A stretch of DNA of 64,000 nucleotides from Olleya sp. YS (GTDB lineage: Bacteria > Bacteroidota > Bacteroidia > Flavobacteriales > Flavobacteriaceae), in NCBI RefSeq assembly GCF_029760915.1, contig NZ_CP121685.1, forward strand, positions 470,001-534,000. Direction: 5' to 3'. Positions 37,621 through 49,670 of this stretch are shown piece by piece. Position 1 is the first letter of the stretch. Each line of letters begins with the position of its first letter. The notes under the pieces were generated by a model, which saw only the letters and a list, made by a program, of their open reading frames with translations, was not told the origin of the DNA and searched no databases. The position numbers were made by a program, and so were the translations under genes.

Positions 37621-38703
37621 TTAACTTTTTATAATTTTCTCTTGGTGGTTAATCGACTCTTGGTGAATAGCTTTAAACAGTTTTAAAATAAACTCTTCAC
37701 TCAACCCTTTTTGCTCACCTTCTAAAACCATTTTGCCTAAAATCTCGTTCCAACGTTTGCTTTGTAAAACTGCTACGTTTTTTTGCTTTTTTAGTGCGCC
37801 AATTCCGTCTGCAACCTTCATACGTTTTCCTAATAACTCGATAACTTGATTATCTACCACATCTATTTGCGCTCTTAGATTAGCCAACTCGTTATTGTAT
37901 TCTGCTTCAGGATCTGTTTCTTTTCTAATCTTTAAATCCTTCATCATTTGGATTAAAGTTGTAGGTGTCACTTGTTGCGCAGCATCACTCCATGCATTGT
38001 CTGGATCTGTATGTGTCTCAATCATTAATCCATCAAAGTTTAAGTCTAATGCAGTTTGTGATACATCAAATACCATATCGCGTTTACCTGTAATGTGAGA
38101 TGGATCATTTATTAAAGGTAAGTCTGGAAATCTGTTTTGAAACTCGATTGCTAATTGCCACTCTGGTATGTTTCTGTATTTAGATTTTTCGTAAGTAGAA
38201 AATCCTCTGTGGATAGCTCCTAGGTTTTTAATTCCAGCAGTATATAAACGCTCTATACCACCTAACCATAATGCTAAATCTGGATTAACTGGGTTTTTAA
38301 CTAGAACAATTTTATCTGTTCCTGCTAATGCATCTGCCAACTCTTGCATAATAAACGGACTAACCGTTGAGCGTGCTCCTATCCAAAGTAAATCCACATC
38401 GTTTTCTAATGCTAACTTAACATGTGCAGTATTTGCTACTTCCGTACAGGTTTTCATACCTGTTTCTTCTTTTACTTTTTTAAGCCATTTTAAACCTAAA
38501 GCACCAACACCTTCAAAATTTCCTGGTCTGGTACGTGGTTTCCATATTCCAGCTCTGTAATAACTAACGTCTGTATCTTTAAGCTCGTGAGCAATTTTTA
38601 ATACTTGTTCTTCAGTCTCTGCACTACATGGTCCTGCAATTACCAATGGATGGTCCAACTTCATATCATCCAACCAGTTTCTCATTTCTTTTTTGTTTTC
38701 CAT
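37621..38703 (-). CDS. bifunctional DAHP synthase / chorismate mutase
   Basis: Residues 1-260 are a DAHP synthase (PLVIAGPCSAETEEQ, RAGIWKPRTRPGNFEGVG, LWIGARSTVSPF, NDPSHITGKRD), the entry step of the shikimate pathway. Residues 270-360 are an AroQ-type chorismate mutase (LANLRAQIDVVDNQVIELLGKRMKVADGIG). The fused mutase often gives feedback control by prephenate or aromatic amino acids. It is the last gene of the Phe/Tyr operon, 122 bases after tyrA; that gap has no clear promoter. Confidence 0.93.
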   Translation of the reverse strand: MENKKEMRNWLDDMKLDHPLVIAGPCSAETEEQVLKIAHELKDTDVSYYRAGIWKPRTRPGNFEGVGALGLKWLKKVKEETGMKTCTEVANTAHVKLALENDVDLLWIGARSTVSPFIMQELADALAGTDKIVLVKNPVNPDLALWLGGIERLYTAGIKNLGAIHRGFSTYEKSKYRNIPEWQLAIEFQNRFPDLPLINDPSHITGKRDMVFDVSQTALDLNFDGLMIETHTDPDNAWSDAAQQVTPTTLIQMMKDLKIRKETDPEAEYNNELANLRAQIDVVDNQVIELLGKRMKVADGIGALKKQKNVAVLQSKRWNEILGKMVLEGEQKGLSEEFILKLFKAIHQESINHQEKIIKS

Positions 38704-38825: not shown

Positions 38826-39680
38826 TTATTGTATTCCGTTTAATATTTGTTTAATGTAATTAGTGTCTTTCATTTCGTTATAAACGCCTTCAAAATCGTC
38901 GTTTTCTATAAGCGTTTTAAAATGAGTTAAATTGGCAATATAATCTTCTAAAGTATCTACTACATTGGCTTTATTTTGTTTAAAAATAGGAGTCCACATC
39001 GCTGGACTACTTTTTGCTAACCTTACTGTACTCTCAAAACCCGAACCAGCCATATCAAAAATATCACGTTCGTTTTTTTCTTTTTCGATGACTGTTTTTC
39101 CTAGCATAAATGCACTAATGTGTGATAAATGCGATACATATGCAATATGCTTGTCATGAGATTCTGGATTCATGTAACGCATACGCATACCCAAATCGTT
39201 AAACAGATTAACTGCTTTTTCCTGCAATTTGAATGCTGTTTTTTCTACTTCGCAAATAATATTTGTTTTATACTGAAACAAATCTTTGATTGCTGCTTTT
39301 GGTCCAGAAAACTCGGTTCCAGCAATAGGATGCATTGCTAAAAAATTACGACGTTTTGGATGATTCTCTACCGCTTTGCATATATCTGCTTTGGTTGATC
39401 CAACATCTGCTACTAAAGCAAAGTCTGTAATAGTGTCTAAAATTTTAGGTAACAATTGTACTGAAGCATCCACAGGAATTGCTAATATCACTAAATCTGC
39501 TTGATCTAAATCGTCTAATGTCGCTTTTTCATCAATGACACCTAACTCTAAAGCTTGATTTAAATGGTCTTCAGATTGGTCTATACCAAAAACTTTAACG
39601 CCTTGACGTTTATGCTTAATGTCTAAAGCTAAACTGCCACCAATTAATCCAACACCTATGATGTATATATTTTGTATCAT
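38826..39680 (-). CDS. tyrA: prephenate dehydrogenase
   Basis: Oxidatively decarboxylates prephenate to 4-hydroxyphenylpyruvate for tyrosine. 284 residues with an N-terminal dinucleotide fold (IIGVGLIGGSLALDIK) and the AMHPIAGTEFSGP substrate segment. There is no C-terminal ACT domain, so Tyr inhibition by that route is not expected. It overlaps the aminotransferase gene by 4 bases. Confidence 0.93.
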   Translation of the reverse strand: MIQNIYIIGVGLIGGSLALDIKHKRQGVKVFGIDQSEDHLNQALELGVIDEKATLDDLDQADLVILAIPVDASVQLLPKILDTITDFALVADVGSTKADICKAVENHPKRRNFLAMHPIAGTEFSGPKAAIKDLFQYKTNIICEVEKTAFKLQEKAVNLFNDLGMRMRYMNPESHDKHIAYVSHLSHISAFMLGKTVIEKEKNERDIFDMAGSGFESTVRLAKSSPAMWTPIFKQNKANVVDTLEDYIANLTHFKTLIENDDFEGVYNEMKDTNYIKQILNGIQ

Positions 39681-40816
39681 ACTCTTGCTATTGCTTCTTC
39701 AATATCTTCTTCGGATGCACATAATGAAAACCTTACATAACCTTCACCTTGTGTTCCAAATATAATTCCTGGTGTTATAAACACACTTTTTTCTATTAAT
39801 AATGCATCTATAAAAGCTTCTGAAGTCTCTCCTTCAGGCACTTTTGCCCACACAAATAATCCTGATGCTTCTTTACTAAATGTACAATTTAGTTTCGTGG
39901 CTAATTGCCAAACCAGTTGTCTTCTTTTTTCATAAATACTATTAAGGCTAGAATACCATAGTTTAGAACATTTTAAAGCTTCAATAGCACCTTTTTGAAT
40001 TCCGTAAAACATTCCAGAATCCATGTTACTTTTCACTTTTAAAATGGCTTGAATATGTTGACTACTTCCTAAAACCATTCCTACTCGCCAACCTGCCATG
40101 TTAAAAGTTTTGCTTAACGAATTAAGCTCTAAACAAACCTCTTTAGCTCCTTTTACGCTTAAAATACTTAAAGGCGTTTCATTTAAAATAAAGCTATACG
40201 GATTATCATTAACCAATAATATATCGTGCTTTTTAGCAAATGCAACCAACTGCTCAAAATCTGATCTTGTCGCTTTGGCACCTGTTGGCATATGCGGATA
40301 ACTAATCCACATAAGTTTGACCTTGCTTAAATCTTGTTGTTCAAGCTCTGCTATATTTGGCAACCAATTATTACTACTATCTAAATTATAAGTTATAGGA
40401 TTAGCTTGCACTAATTTAGTGACTGCTGCATAGGTTGGGTAGCCAGGATTTGGAATTAACACACCATCTCCTTGATTTAAAAAAGCTAAAGATATATGCA
40501 TGATACCTTCCTTACTTCCCATTAAAGGTAACACCTCTGCATCAGGATTGATGTGTGTGTAATAGTGTTCTTTATAAAAATCTGCAATTGCTTGACGCAA
40601 CTCTGGTAAGCCTTGATAGCTTTGGTATTTATGTGCTGTAGGATGTGTTATACTCTCAGTTAGTGCTTTAACCACCTGACTTGGTGGTTGCAAATCTGGA
40701 CTACCTATCCCTAAGTTAATTATAGGTTTACCTGCTGCTTGTAAAGCATAGACTTCTTTTAACTTTTTAGAAAAGTAATATTCTTGTACGCTATGTAATC
40801 TGTCTGCTACCTCCAT
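39677..40816 (-). CDS. class I/II aminotransferase, probably aromatic
   Basis: A 379-residue PLP aminotransferase. The PLP lysine is in LNSLSKTFNMAGWRVG. Other motifs are LNLGIGSPDLQPP and NDNPYSFIL. Between prephenate dehydratase and prephenate dehydrogenase, its likely job is the last step, transamination of phenylpyruvate and hydroxyphenylpyruvate. Aspartate or LL-diaminopimelate substrates cannot be excluded from sequence. It overlaps pheA by one base and tyrA by four. Confidence 0.85.
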   Translation of the reverse strand: MEVADRLHSVQEYYFSKKLKEVYALQAAGKPIINLGIGSPDLQPPSQVVKALTESITHPTAHKYQSYQGLPELRQAIADFYKEHYYTHINPDAEVLPLMGSKEGIMHISLAFLNQGDGVLIPNPGYPTYAAVTKLVQANPITYNLDSSNNWLPNIAELEQQDLSKVKLMWISYPHMPTGAKATRSDFEQLVAFAKKHDILLVNDNPYSFILNETPLSILSVKGAKEVCLELNSLSKTFNMAGWRVGMVLGSSQHIQAILKVKSNMDSGMFYGIQKGAIEALKCSKLWYSSLNSIYEKRRQLVWQLATKLNCTFSKEASGLFVWAKVPEGETSEAFIDALLIEKSVFITPGIIFGTQGEGYVRFSLCASEEDIEEAIARV

Positions 40817-41643
40817 TATAGTTTAGCATTTTTATATTCTCCAATCACTTTAAAATGGGTTGCCATAATATCCATAATAGATTTCGCTTTTTTAAAATCC
40901 TGATAATTCTTAAACGTGACATCTACAAAAAAAGCGTATTTCCAAGGAGTTTCAATAATTGGCAAGGATTGTATCTTAGTTAGATTTAGCTTACAGTCAC
41001 TCATTACATTTAATATGGTGGCTAAGCTTCCTCTTTTATGGTCTAATTCAAATTTTATTGAAGCTTTGTTAATGTCCTGTTCTGGTATTTCAGAATTTTT
41101 TTGTTTAACAACAACAAAACGTGTCTCGTTATGTTTAATGGTTTGTATGCTTTCCGCTAAAATAGTCAGCTCAAAAATCTCTGCTGCTAATGTACTAGCA
41201 ATTGCTGCTACGTTTGGTAACTGGTTGTTTTTGATACGTTCTGCAACCTCAGCAGTATCTTTATCTTCAATTAATTTGATGTATGGATATTGCTTAAAAA
41301 AATCTTTGCATTGTAACAACGCCATAGGATGTGAGTAGACTTCTTTAATATCTTTTATACTCTGATTTGGCAACGCCATTAAATTGTGCTGAATATCTAA
41401 ATAATACTCTCCGACGATATGTAAATTATTGTTATCAATTAGTGCATAATTGGGTATGATAGAACCTGCTATCGAGTTTTCTATAGCCACAATTGCTGCG
41501 TCAGATTGTTTAGACAAGACACTGTCTATGGTTTGGTCAAAGGACAAAAACGGAAACACCTTTATGTCTGTCTCAAAATAATGTTGAGACACAATGTGGT
41601 GAAACGACCCTTTAATACCTTGTATGGCTACTGATGTTATCAA
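40816..41643 (-). CDS. pheA: prephenate dehydratase
   Basis: Converts prephenate to phenylpyruvate. 275 residues: a dehydratase domain (VAIQGIKGSFHHIVSQHYF, VAIENSIAGSI, NETRFVVV with the TRF catalytic motif) and a C-terminal ACT domain from about 190 (SIKFELDHKRGSLATILNV). The Phe-binding ESRP motif of E. coli is IQSLP here. It is the first structural gene of the operon and lies behind a leader peptide and attenuator (41665-41819). Confidence 0.94.
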   Translation of the reverse strand: MITSVAIQGIKGSFHHIVSQHYFETDIKVFPFLSFDQTIDSVLSKQSDAAIVAIENSIAGSIIPNYALIDNNNLHIVGEYYLDIQHNLMALPNQSIKDIKEVYSHPMALLQCKDFFKQYPYIKLIEDKDTAEVAERIKNNQLPNVAAIASTLAAEIFELTILAESIQTIKHNETRFVVVKQKNSEIPEQDINKASIKFELDHKRGSLATILNVMSDCKLNLTKIQSLPIIETPWKYAFFVDVTFKNYQDFKKAKSIMDIMATHFKVIGEYKNAKL

Positions 41644-41664: not shown

Positions 41665-41698
41665 TAAAAAAAAGTCTCGATAATTATCGAGACTTTTT
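41665..41698 (-). terminator. attenuator terminator of the pheA operon
   Basis: Minus strand: AGTCTCGATAA/TTATCGAGACT, a perfect 11-bp palindrome (41673-41694), followed by eight T (41665-41672), 22 bases before the pheA start. Its 5' arm (GTCTCG, 41688-41693) is complementary to CGAGAC (41731-41736) in the leader-peptide coding sequence, which can act as antiterminator. Confidence 0.82.
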
Positions 41699-41717
41699 AA
41701 ATACATATCCTGTTAAA

Positions 41718-41795
41718 TTACATACATAACGTCTCGTTCTTTTTGTTAAAAAAGAAATAGTACCAGTTATAATATGCTGTGTTTATTTTGCTCAT
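41718..41795 (-). CDS. leader peptide of the pheA operon
   Basis: A 25-codon ORF, ATG at 41795, TAA at 41718-41720. It encodes the run AYYNWYYFFFN: four Tyr, three Phe and one Trp within nine residues. Stalling there at low Phe or Tyr would leave CGAGAC (41731-41736) free to pair with the terminator arm. A ribosome that reaches the stop covers it. The stop is 24 bases before the terminator. This is the classical translation-attenuation layout, directly in front of the Phe/Tyr operon. Confidence 0.85.
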   Translation of the reverse strand: MSKINTAYYNWYYFFFNKKNETLCM

Positions 41796-41811
41796 GTTTG
41801 AAATACTGATG

Positions 41812-41840
41812 CTAAAGTAAATAATAAATTGACAAATCAA
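41812..41840 (-). promoter_or_regulatory. promoter of the pheA operon
   Basis: Minus strand: TTG, 18 bases, TACTTTAG (41812-41819; consensus TAnnTTTG with one mismatch). The predicted start near 41805 leaves about 10 nt before the leader-peptide ATG. Confidence 0.5.
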
Positions 41841-41861
41841 AATACTAAGTCTCTATTTTTG
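41829..41861 (+). promoter_or_regulatory. promoter of gldA
   Basis: TTGAC (TTG 41829-41831), 22 bases, TATTTTTG (41854-41861). A second TATTTTTG at 41922-41929, nearer the gene, lacks a TTG partner. The region is divergent with the pheA promoter and overlaps it. Confidence 0.5.
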
Positions 41862-41945: not shown

Positions 41946-42839
41946 ATGTCAATTAAAGTTGAAAATATCACAAAAGTTTATGGTCAACAAAAGGCTTTAA
42001 ACAATGTTTCTTTTAAAATCAATCGTCCAGAAATTGTTGGTTTTTTAGGTCCAAATGGTGCTGGAAAATCGACGATGATGAAAATTTTAACCACTTACAT
42101 CCAACCTACAGAAGGACAAGCCCAAGTTAATGGACATGATATTATCACTCAAACCCAAAAGGTACAACAAAGTGTAGGGTATTTACCAGAGCACAACCCA
42201 TTGTATTTAGAGCAATACGTTAGAGAATATTTAGTCTTTAATGCAAGTGTCTATAAAGTTGATAAAGCTAGAGTTGAAGAAGTGATTGCCTTAACAGGAT
42301 TAACACCAGAAGCACATAAAACTATAGGTCAACTCTCCAAGGGTTATCGTCAACGTGTTGGGTTAGCCAATGCGTTATTGCATGATCCAGAAGTCTTGAT
42401 TCTGGACGAGCCTACTACAGGTTTAGACCCAAACCAATTAATAGACATTAGACAGTTAATTAAAAACTTAGGCAAAGACAAAACCGTGTTTTTATCGACA
42501 CACATCATGCAAGAGGTAGAAGCTATGTGCGATCGTGTTATTATTATTAATAAAGGCGAAATTGTTGCCAATAAAAAACTACAAGAATTACGCGATGGTC
42601 AGGAGCAAATTGTTGTTGTCGAGTTTGATTACCGAGTAGAAGATGCTTTTTTACTAAAGTTACCACACGTTAAAAGCGTTAAAAACACACATGATTTTAT
42701 ATACGAAATCACCTTTTCTACCACAGAAGACATGCGTAGTCATGTGTTTGATTTTGCACATGATAACGAGTTGAAAATCTTACAATTGAACCAGAAAAAT
42801 GCGAGTTTAGAAAGTTTGTTTAGAGAATTGACTGCTTAA
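41946..42839 (+). CDS. gldA: gliding-motility ABC transporter ATP-binding protein
   Basis: A 297-residue ATPase. Walker A GPNGAGKS (35-42), signature LSKGYRQRVG, Walker B VLILDEPTTGLD and switch His in FLSTHIMQE are all present. Sequence and length fit GldA, which with GldF and GldG is needed for gliding in flavobacteria. The partners are not in the window, as is common. Other ATPases of the same subfamily are possible but less likely. Confidence 0.85.
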   Translation: MSIKVENITKVYGQQKALNNVSFKINRPEIVGFLGPNGAGKSTMMKILTTYIQPTEGQAQVNGHDIITQTQKVQQSVGYLPEHNPLYLEQYVREYLVFNASVYKVDKARVEEVIALTGLTPEAHKTIGQLSKGYRQRVGLANALLHDPEVLILDEPTTGLDPNQLIDIRQLIKNLGKDKTVFLSTHIMQEVEAMCDRVIIINKGEIVANKKLQELRDGQEQIVVVEFDYRVEDAFLLKLPHVKSVKNTHDFIYEITFSTTEDMRSHVFDFAHDNELKILQLNQKNASLESLFRELTA

Positions 42840-47945: not shown

Positions 47946-49238
47946 TTATATTAAAACTGTTTTTTTAACAACTGCAAATGCGTCTTTTAAATCGGCTTTT
48001 AAATCGTCGACGTTCTCAATCCCAACAGACAACCTTATTAAGTCTTTGGTCACACCTGTAGTTTCTTGTGCGTCATCACTTAATTGTTGATGTGTTGTAC
48101 TTGCAGGATGAATAATTAATGATTTTGTATCACCAATATTGGCTAACAATGAAAATAGCTTTGTTGTGTCTGCTATAGTTTTTGCAGATTCATAACCACC
48201 TTCTACACCAAAAGTGACGATTCCACTTTGTCCTTTTGGTAAGTATTTTTTAGCTAAATGGTTATACTTACTATTGTCTAAACCTGGATAATTCACCCAA
48301 GTCACTTCAGGTTGTTGTTGTAACCATTTTGCTAATTCTAAAGCATTTTGAGAATGTTTTAAAATTCGTAATTCTAAAGTTTCTAAACCTTGAATAATTT
48401 GAAATGCATTAAACGGACTTAAAGCACCACCATAATCACGTAAGCCTTCAATTCTTATTTTTGCAATAAAAGCTGCTGGACCAATAGCTTCGCTATATAC
48501 CAAACCATGATAACCTGCTGATGGTTCTGTAAATTCTGGGAATTTGCCATTTGTCCAATCAAAAGTTCCTGCATCTACGATGATGCCTCCAAGTGAGGTT
48601 CCGTTACCATTAATATATTTTGTTAGTGAATGGATAACAATATTTGCTCCATACTCAATTGGATTTAACAGATATGGTGTCGCTACTGTATTGTCTACTA
48701 TTAGTGGAACTTTGTGTGCTTTAGCTTCTTTTGAAATAGCTTCAATATCTAAAACATCTAATTTTGGATTCCCTAAAGATTCTACAAATATAGCACGTGT
48801 ATTTTGTTGTGCAGCTTTACTAAAATTCTCCGGATTGGAAGGGTCAACAAACGTAGTTGTAATCCCATGTCTTGGAAGCGTAACGCTAAGTAAATTATAT
48901 GTTCCTCCATATAAACTGCTAGATGCAACAATATGGTCACCTGCTTTTAACAATGTTAGTAAGGTCGTGCTAATAGCAGCTGTCCCAGAAGCTGTTGCTA
49001 CTGCTGCAATACCACCTTCTAAAGCAGCAATACGTTGCTCTAAAATATCGTTAGTAGGATTGTTTAATCTAGTGTAAATAAATCCTGGAACCGACAAGTT
49101 AAAACGTCCAGCTGCATCATCTGAATCATCAAAAACGTATGCTGTAGATTGATAAATTGGCACTGCTCTAGTTCCTCCAGTTTGTGCTGTGTCGTGTCCT
49201 GCATGCAACGCTTGGGTTGCAAATTTTTGTGTACTCAT
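47946..49238 (-). CDS. metY: O-acetylhomoserine sulfhydrylase
   Basis: Makes homocysteine from O-acetylhomoserine and sulfide. 430 residues, a Cys/Met metabolism PLP enzyme. The PLP lysine is in HSLTKYINGNGTSLGG. Further motifs: ATQALHAGHDTAQ at the start, ASSSLYGGTYNL, and VRLSVGIENVDDL-type end (LIRLSVGIENVDDLKADL). The length above 420 with this N-terminus favours MetY over cystathionine synthase. A SAM-I riboswitch lies 158 bases upstream. Confidence 0.93.
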   Translation of the reverse strand: MSTQKFATQALHAGHDTAQTGGTRAVPIYQSTAYVFDDSDDAAGRFNLSVPGFIYTRLNNPTNDILEQRIAALEGGIAAVATASGTAAISTTLLTLLKAGDHIVASSSLYGGTYNLLSVTLPRHGITTTFVDPSNPENFSKAAQQNTRAIFVESLGNPKLDVLDIEAISKEAKAHKVPLIVDNTVATPYLLNPIEYGANIVIHSLTKYINGNGTSLGGIIVDAGTFDWTNGKFPEFTEPSAGYHGLVYSEAIGPAAFIAKIRIEGLRDYGGALSPFNAFQIIQGLETLELRILKHSQNALELAKWLQQQPEVTWVNYPGLDNSKYNHLAKKYLPKGQSGIVTFGVEGGYESAKTIADTTKLFSLLANIGDTKSLIIHPASTTHQQLSDDAQETTGVTKDLIRLSVGIENVDDLKADLKDAFAVVKKTVLI

Positions 49239-49395
49239 TTTTCTAGTTTTTTGAGTTAATAAATTAAACCAAAAGCCAAAGAAGCCTCTTATGAAGCGTA
49301 CTTAATAGAAAAATGTTATAAGAAATTAACCTAATTACAGATGAGTAATTACGTGTGAGTTATCTATCTGAATGCGCAAAAAATATCTTGCGTTT

Positions 49396-49480
49396 TCAAG
49401 TAGAATGTAGCACCTTCTTAGTATGTCTAAGGGTTGCTAAGGCTTCAAAGGGTCTAATCCCTCCACCTTTCTTGATAACA
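49396..49480 (-). ncRNA. SAM-I (S-box) riboswitch
   Basis: Minus strand. The sequence shows the SAM-I core in order: TCAAGAAAGGTGGAGGGA, GACCC, TTTGAAGCC, TTAGCAACC, AAGGTGCTACATTCTAC. The closing stem P1 is TCAAG with CTTGA. It binds SAM and lowers expression of metY and metX. The 157 nt to the start contain a CGCAA/TTGCG hairpin at about 49375-49392 but no clear U-tract terminator, so control of translation is possible. The rest of 49239-49670 shows no gene. Confidence 0.92.
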
Positions 49481-49670
49481 TTTCAGTAAGTTTTTGAACT
49501 TTGTGAATACAAATATTGCAAAATATATTTTTTACAAACAAGTAAAACCAATTATTTTTCTGAATTTTTATGATAAAAGTAAATAAATAGAATAATAGTT
49601 GGATTTTGATAATTAAACAAAATAATTTTCGGAATTACTTGAATAAACTTTAGGTGTCATCATTTGTTTT

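Follow-up and report, generated by a model that had tools for sequence, protein, structure and literature searches.

A putative leader-peptide attenuator with mixed aromatic codons ahead of the pheA operon of Olleya sp. YS and many other Bacteroidia

The window considered here is the whole 64,000-nucleotide stretch G000:C1:470001-534000 of the Olleya sp. YS genome (nearest named relative Olleya aquimaris, pheA 98% identical), and it carries on its minus strand an aromatic amino-acid operon that is preceded by a candidate transcription attenuator. The operon extends from 41643 to 37621 and begins with pheA, encoding prephenate dehydratase (40816-41643; Pfam PDT, 4.3e-56), followed by a class I/II aminotransferase (39677-40816; Pfam), tyrA, encoding prephenate dehydrogenase (38826-39680; Pfam PDH_N and PDH_C), and a DAHP synthase fused to a type II chorismate mutase (37621-38703; Pfam). 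The upstream neighbour, an ABC transporter gene (41946-42839, plus strand; Pfam), is divergently oriented.

Ahead of the operon lies a short open reading frame (ORF) of 25 codons, MSKINTAYYNWYYFFFNKKNETLCM (41718-41795, minus strand; ATG at 41795, TAA at 41718), flanked by a promoter-like site on its 5' side and by a U-tailed hairpin on its 3' side. Eight of its codons (8, 9 and 11-16) specify tyrosine (Tyr), phenylalanine (Phe) or tryptophan (Trp), the run covering 41774-41748. This ORF had been proposed in a sequence-only reading of the window, and its length and codon run were confirmed. The promoter-like site (41812-41841, minus strand) is composed of TTTG (41841-41838), a spacer of 18 nucleotides (nt) and TACTTTAG (41819-41812), which we take to be the Bacteroidota TTTG/TAnnTTTG kind. 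The end coordinate first given for the element, 41819, is only the first base of TACTTTAG, the site itself spanning 41841-41812. Using a pattern loosened to suit these leader sequences, a comparable pair precedes the leader start codon by no more than 80 nt in 106 of the 136 leaders described below, and in 1 of 136 shuffled regions. On the other side of the ORF, an intrinsic terminator (stem 3:4; 41666-41698, minus strand) is predicted from the sequence, with a perfect stem of 13 base pairs (bp; -14.9 kcal/mol), a 4-nt AATT loop and eight T at 41673-41666, ending 22 nt before pheA. It had been read as a perfect 11-bp palindrome with eight U, which is right as to perfection and tail but too short for the stem.

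Two further pairings can be drawn in this leader, and one of them excludes the terminator. The strand 2 core CGAGAC (41731-41736, minus strand), located within the leader ORF, is complementary to the strand 3 core GTCTCG (41688-41693, minus strand), which is at once the 5' arm of the terminator, whose 3' arm is CGAGAC at 41679-41674, and the 3' arm of the putative antiterminator 2:3. This complementarity (41736-41731 with 41693-41688), also part of the sequence-only reading, holds, and in the window's own leader 2:3 exceeds dinucleotide shuffles with p 0.02. Strand 1, GCAUAUUAUAAC (41766-41777, minus strand; codons A7-N10), pairs with the 3' flank of strand 2, GUUAUGUAUGU (41720-41730, minus strand), which is partly also inside the antiterminator. 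The resulting protector stem 1:2 (41777-41766 with 41730-41720) was obtained as a duplex and is part of the minimum-energy fold of the whole leader. The amino-acid attenuator layout proposed earlier is supported, with the addition of 1:2, of which it had made no mention.

For comparison, pheA upstream regions were taken from the best 80 of 245 contig-search loci, from genomes of the genus (10), the order (146) and the class (119), and from 20 regions fetched by place. The 165 loci correspond to 160 distinct upstream regions, five being dropped as identical to others, and Flavobacteriaceae predominate among them. A leader was called by rule when an ATG ORF, 10-45 codons long, had 5 or more aromatics in 10 codons and was accompanied by a U-tailed hairpin within 90 nt; the terminator part was loosened because AT-rich Flavobacterium stems had failed its first version. 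Aromatic leader and terminator were found together in 136 of the 160 regions, the 24 negatives being L025 (truncated), L120, L121, L125, L131-L133, L136, L141, L144, L146-L148, L150, L152, L153 and L158-L165. On visual inspection, two of these, L141 and L144, have an aromatic leader together with a U-tailed stem, and they fail the terminator rules, including a second rule. When shuffled regions were scored by the ORF criterion alone, an ATG ORF of the same length range with 7 or more aromatics in 10 codons occurred in 133/160 real regions versus 3/480 dinucleotide-shuffled ones. Tyr and Phe codons are both present in every one of the 136 rule-positive leaders, and Trp codons in 82.

The pattern of change within Flavobacteriaceae supports translation of the leader ORF. 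An alignment of 63 rows (A1) was built from the L001-L093 leaders, those more than 93% alike or with a peptide longer than 30 amino acids being omitted. Its 46 internal gaps ahead of strand 2 are all of 3 or 6 nt and its start codons are offset by multiples of three, whereas 339 of the 343 gaps of the non-coding stretch are of 1-2 nt. Counted over pairwise comparisons, in which pairs are not independent, 1631 of 1894 changed aromatic codons remain aromatic. By the same counting, the run shows 958 synonymous versus 2738 non-synonymous codon differences, a shortfall explained in part by the fact that Tyr/Phe exchanges alter the second base.

These data also bear on another explanation, in which the peptide made from the ORF matters in itself, either as a functional hydrophobic micropeptide or by causing arrest as a nascent chain, so that the terminator is governed by peptide arrest and not by slow decoding. 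Such a peptide would account for the strong conservation of YFFF and its adjoining residues in Flavobacteriaceae, and for the lack of a synonymous majority. Nevertheless, Tyr, Phe and Trp replace each other in the run, the sequence outside it varies between families, and the stop codon follows directly on the run at several loci (e.g., L016, L057 and L072), which makes this explanation improbable.

Evidence for the antiterminator comes mostly from distant genera, where the terminator arm differs (CAATCCTG, AAGCCTC, AGTCCCG, GACCGC and others), with matching alterations in the ORF segment. This was quantified by swapping partners among 33 representatives less than 70% alike, using the whole, unselected spacer and 20000 permutations. 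The mean energy of the 2:3 duplex is -14.2 kcal/mol with the own partner versus -8.9 kcal/mol with swapped ones (z -11.0), and that of 1:2 is -18.8 versus -13.1 kcal/mol (z -10.2), neither value being reached in any permutation (0/20000). Limiting the swaps to leaders of like G+C content leaves z at -8.0 for 2:3 and -7.9 for 1:2 (0/20000 each), and an ungapped score for 2:3 gives z 11.4 (0/20000). Individually, 2:3 goes beyond dinucleotide shuffles (p < 0.05) in 113 of the 136 leaders, and 1:2 beyond shuffles in 21 of the 33 representatives. The 1:2 partners are codons before or in the aromatic run on one side and strand 2 with its 3' flank on the other, and a 1:2 stem is supported across the representatives at the level of sequence. 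Folding of the RNA that begins with strand 2 and ends with strand 3 gives a strand 2 fully paired with strand 3 in 31/33 cases (the others being L122, 3/6, and L155, 7/8), although this count, like an earlier 2:3 z of -11.6, is biased upwards because the strand 2 start had been picked by pairing.

Several observations weigh against the attenuator, and the biased estimates and the synonymous shortfall already given belong with them. An alignment of upstream regions of relatives had been set as a check by the sequence-only reading. The 63 rows of close relatives indeed keep both the aromatic run and the pairing of CGAGAC with GTCTCG, but the core changes to G-U only and its outermost pair is missing in 8 rows. 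The covariation anticipated there is therefore slight within Flavobacteriaceae, the arms changing together in distant genera. In a column test within the family, further pair types in 2:3 were reached by 169/500 shuffles and pairs changed on both sides by 44/500; for 1:2 and 3:4 together, pairs changed on both sides were reached by 89/500, the 1:2 register being off by about 2 nt in Olleya, which depresses the observed counts for this pair of stems. Standard pairs fill 90.6% of the cells of 1:2 and 3:4 versus 26-48% when partners are slid by 1-3 columns, a comparison favourable to the structures as drawn, since these, like that of 2:3, were taken from a single row (L033) of the MAFFT alignment. 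Among the 136 leaders, 2:3 is individually non-significant in 23, including the representatives L017, L122, L135 and L139, and 1:2 in 12 of the 33 representatives, among them the window's own leader (p >= 0.05 versus shuffles of the strand 1 region). A leader's own partner is the sole best one in 8/33 cases for 2:3 and 7/33 for 1:2; these modest ranks reflect GGGA/TCCC cores common to many lineages. Lastly, many representatives can form a local hairpin in which U-rich Phe codons pair with the purine-rich spacer, but a synonymous-codon control backs it in only 1/33, and it was rejected.

The geometry of the leaders is as required for attenuation, judging from the sequences. The first nucleotide of the last aromatic codon lies at a median of 14 nt from strand 2 (range 6-19 nt in the 136 leaders), and the stop codon is positioned from -9 to +20 nt relative to the strand 2 start in 126 of them, and farther away in 10. 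As a ribosome covers about 12 nt past its A-site codon, one stalled in the run would just free strand 2, while one at the stop codon would cover it in most leaders.

A different arrangement, in which the choice of antiterminator or terminator is made by an RNA-binding protein or a small-molecule aptamer and the ORF is translated only incidentally, is slightly less credible still than an arrest peptide. The alternative stems, taken alone, would be compatible with control by a protein or a ligand. However, no Rfam family matches the pheA leader at the gathering score, Bacteroid-trp (RF01692) included, and among the 18 matches obtained for its 301 bases at E up to 10, all below their cut-offs, there is no amino-acid leader. 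Moreover, the feature common to the rule-positive leaders is an aromatic-rich ORF located 6-19 nt from strand 2, with in-frame gaps only. The little core covariation in the closest relatives would agree with a third possibility, an unregulated, plain terminator beside pheA and an ORF arisen by chance, but this is hardly tenable given the excess of aromatic runs (133/160 versus 3/480), the 2:3 and 1:2 partner swaps (0/20000) and the divergent upstream neighbour, since a hairpin so placed ends no upstream transcript.

Taken together, the sequences show an aromatic ORF, a predicted intrinsic terminator, a mutually exclusive 2:3 pairing with covariation, and 1:2 over the representatives, which are the marks of a trp/phe attenuator. 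It is very probable that the element is a ribosome-mediated transcription attenuator of this type, sensing charged transfer RNAs (tRNA-Tyr, tRNA-Phe and often tRNA-Trp) together. Transcription would start a few nucleotides ahead of the leader ATG, as suggested by the promoter-like site, and the leader would be translated by a ribosome as RNA polymerase advances. With ample aromatic amino acids, the ribosome would reach the stop codon and cover strand 2, so that the terminator 3:4, whose anatomy is evident, would form. Without translation, the covariation-supported stem 1:2 would hold the strand 2 region, and 3:4 would form as well. A stall at a Tyr, Phe or Trp codon would instead open strand 1 and leave strand 2 free for 2:3, the pairing with covariation, which would allow readthrough into pheA, the aminotransferase, tyrA and the DAHP synthase/chorismate mutase gene. 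With a single run of mixed codons, the gate would be a logical OR over the aromatic amino acids, a logic appropriate to an operon that holds the first step of the shared pathway.

The element is widespread in the order. In the order sample, it was found in every one of the 28 genomes of the window's family that gave a pheA match, the window's own included, and it is present in other families of the order: f2 (2/2), f3 (1/1), f14 (3/3) and f8 (2/2 examined, of 3 with a pheA match). In the class sample, only 33 of all 119 genomes gave a pheA match, the protein query being insensitive. Of the 28 genomes with pheA that belong to the class but not to the order, 21 have the element (by rule in 17, by the second rule in L185 and L186, and by eye in L141 and L144); three further genomes of the class also carry it (L219-L221). 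Against a general distribution, it was not found in f11 (0/1), in f15, whose genomes are of 600 kilobases (kb) (0/4 examined), or in f4 (0/10 examined, 8 of which have pheA at only 27-31% identity). Nor was it found, in the class outside the order, at L120, L121, L125, L131-L133 (one family, f25) and L136. At L120 and L121, pheA sits behind another gene, which at L120 is an overlapping ORF of 419 amino acids, aroA-like by eye. Outside the class, where 41 of the 77 loci matching Pfam PDT were examined, one locus, L234 (G279; same phylum, other class), has an aromatic leader, MKNNYYTGFGFYYFYLTRPSCRD, with a terminator, its 2:3 pairing being non-significant (p 0.13). The best reading of these sequence comparisons is that the attenuator is present in many Bacteroidia and missing from some lineages. 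Weak non-ATG ORFs were seen at L223 and L224, outside the class. At L150 (G084, a 600-kb genome), an aromatic ORF, MNRTPYYYYFFIELVNRFMEEYSI, precedes pheA with no terminator by rule, and is perhaps a decaying attenuator in a reduced genome.

In some lineages, the element seems to be doubled. Before pheA, L186 (G247) and L219 (G297) have two aromatic leaders in series, each copy being equipped with a separate terminator and with a strand 2 that matches it (p 0.015-0.04 versus mononucleotide shuffles), and L144 (G204) has two in series by eye.

The enterobacterial pheA and trp attenuators have the same parts, namely a leader ORF that carries codons for the amino acid produced, the three stems 1:2, 2:3 and 3:4, and a U-tailed terminator. 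Enterobacterial pheA leaders sense Phe only, whereas Tyr and Phe codons accompany each other here in all rule-positive leaders, often with Trp, a mixture that hints at a pooled aromatic sensor. A single leader run sensing several amino acids of one pathway is also found in the ilvGMEDA and thrABC operons, for other amino acids and in another phylum. The tandem copies resemble the tandem attenuators of Salmonella mgtCBR, where two ORF-coupled attenuators also stand in series but respond to other signals (PMC3641672), both copies having aromatic runs here. A further difference from enterobacteria is that the host bacteria are described as lacking Shine-Dalgarno initiation (PMC6847099, PMC9976891).

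Leader-peptide attenuation as a kind is known, and the Bacteroidota, in which the sequence-only reading had called coupling little studied, are a less empty field than that suggests. Bacteroid-trp (RF01692), a leader RNA before an aromatic amino-acid operon, is listed in Bacteroidetes in a motif table of 2010 (PMC2864571). It has Trp codons only in its run and another sequence, and the pheA leader does not match it. A 2021 study of F. psychrophilum lists, before both pheA and hisG, structured 5' elements that have no Rfam hit and recur in other genera of Flavobacteriaceae, and it also reports strong indications of attenuation by leader peptides ahead of amino-acid operons (PMC9723704). The pheA element was thus partly noticed, although the section of that paper on 5' cis-regulatory RNAs gives no peptide, pairing, covariation or reach past Flavobacteriaceae. 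In B. thetaiotaomicron, short ORFs in long 5' untranslated regions are reported as reminiscent of leader peptides (PMC7366714), and the authors of a 2010 article stated that, as far as they knew, no leader peptide had been demonstrated in groups other than Proteobacteria and Actinobacteria until their own case from Firmicutes (PMC2965389). Among open-licence titles and the starts of abstracts, no Tyr/Phe leader attenuator of Bacteroidia was found described, which is weak evidence of absence. What is new here is the reach beyond Flavobacteriaceae, the three-stem covariation, the Tyr codons and the tandem copies.

The bolder parts of the proposal are the pooled Tyr/Phe/Trp sensor, its reach, its probable age and the tandem copies (L186, L219 and, by eye, L144). 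On balance, we lean towards the view that an old attenuator gates aromatic synthesis in much of Bacteroidia, groups distant from Flavobacteriaceae among them, as a pooled sensor of Tyr, Phe and often Trp that works without Shine-Dalgarno initiation and is doubled in some lineages. Ribosome-mediated attenuation needs ribosome and polymerase to move in step. If the proposal is true, these leaders would constitute a natural, ready-made reporter for testing transcription-translation coupling in Bacteroidota, whose ribosomes do without Shine-Dalgarno use, and would allow the regulation of the pheA operon to be annotated in many genomes, besides providing a candidate Rfam family.

Olleya sp. YS probably has a set of such leaders, to which that of pheA belongs, because hisG and trpE leaders occur in the same genome. 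Bacteroid-trp (RF01692) scores 60.5 bits (cut-off 49) over an ORF with a Trp run, MNATLNHTWWWNSRKSTFVN, and a terminator before a trpE-like gene. The simple scan used for other leaders found just 5 bp of 2:3 for this trp leader, and therefore misses some. Before hisG (L172, G000:C1:2721000-2722700), there is a leader with a histidine run, MNFIQSHHHHFHICTQAN, and a terminator, without an Rfam match at the gathering score, and a candidate 7-bp match connects leader and terminator arm. A threonine- and isoleucine-rich ORF, MKKTHTIFTSIMTITLLG, stands shortly before an aspartokinase-homoserine dehydrogenase gene (L174, G000:C1:2562866-2566000), where the simple scan found no terminator; by ORF inspection and the same scan, no leader was seen for ilvD.

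A covariance model of the pheA leader (R1) gave 17 matches in its own genome at E up to 10, the pheA leader itself scoring 105 bits. The second match (47.6 bits, G000:C1:624828-624946) lies close to the 3' end of an ORF resembling lspA by eye, with no aromatic leader among the ORFs listed at that locus; it was read as a terminator, as were the weaker ones. Elsewhere in the window, a SAM riboswitch (RF00162, 73 bits; 49357-49481, minus strand) is located upstream of a gene for a pyridoxal phosphate-dependent enzyme of cysteine and methionine metabolism (47946-49238; Pfam PF01053).
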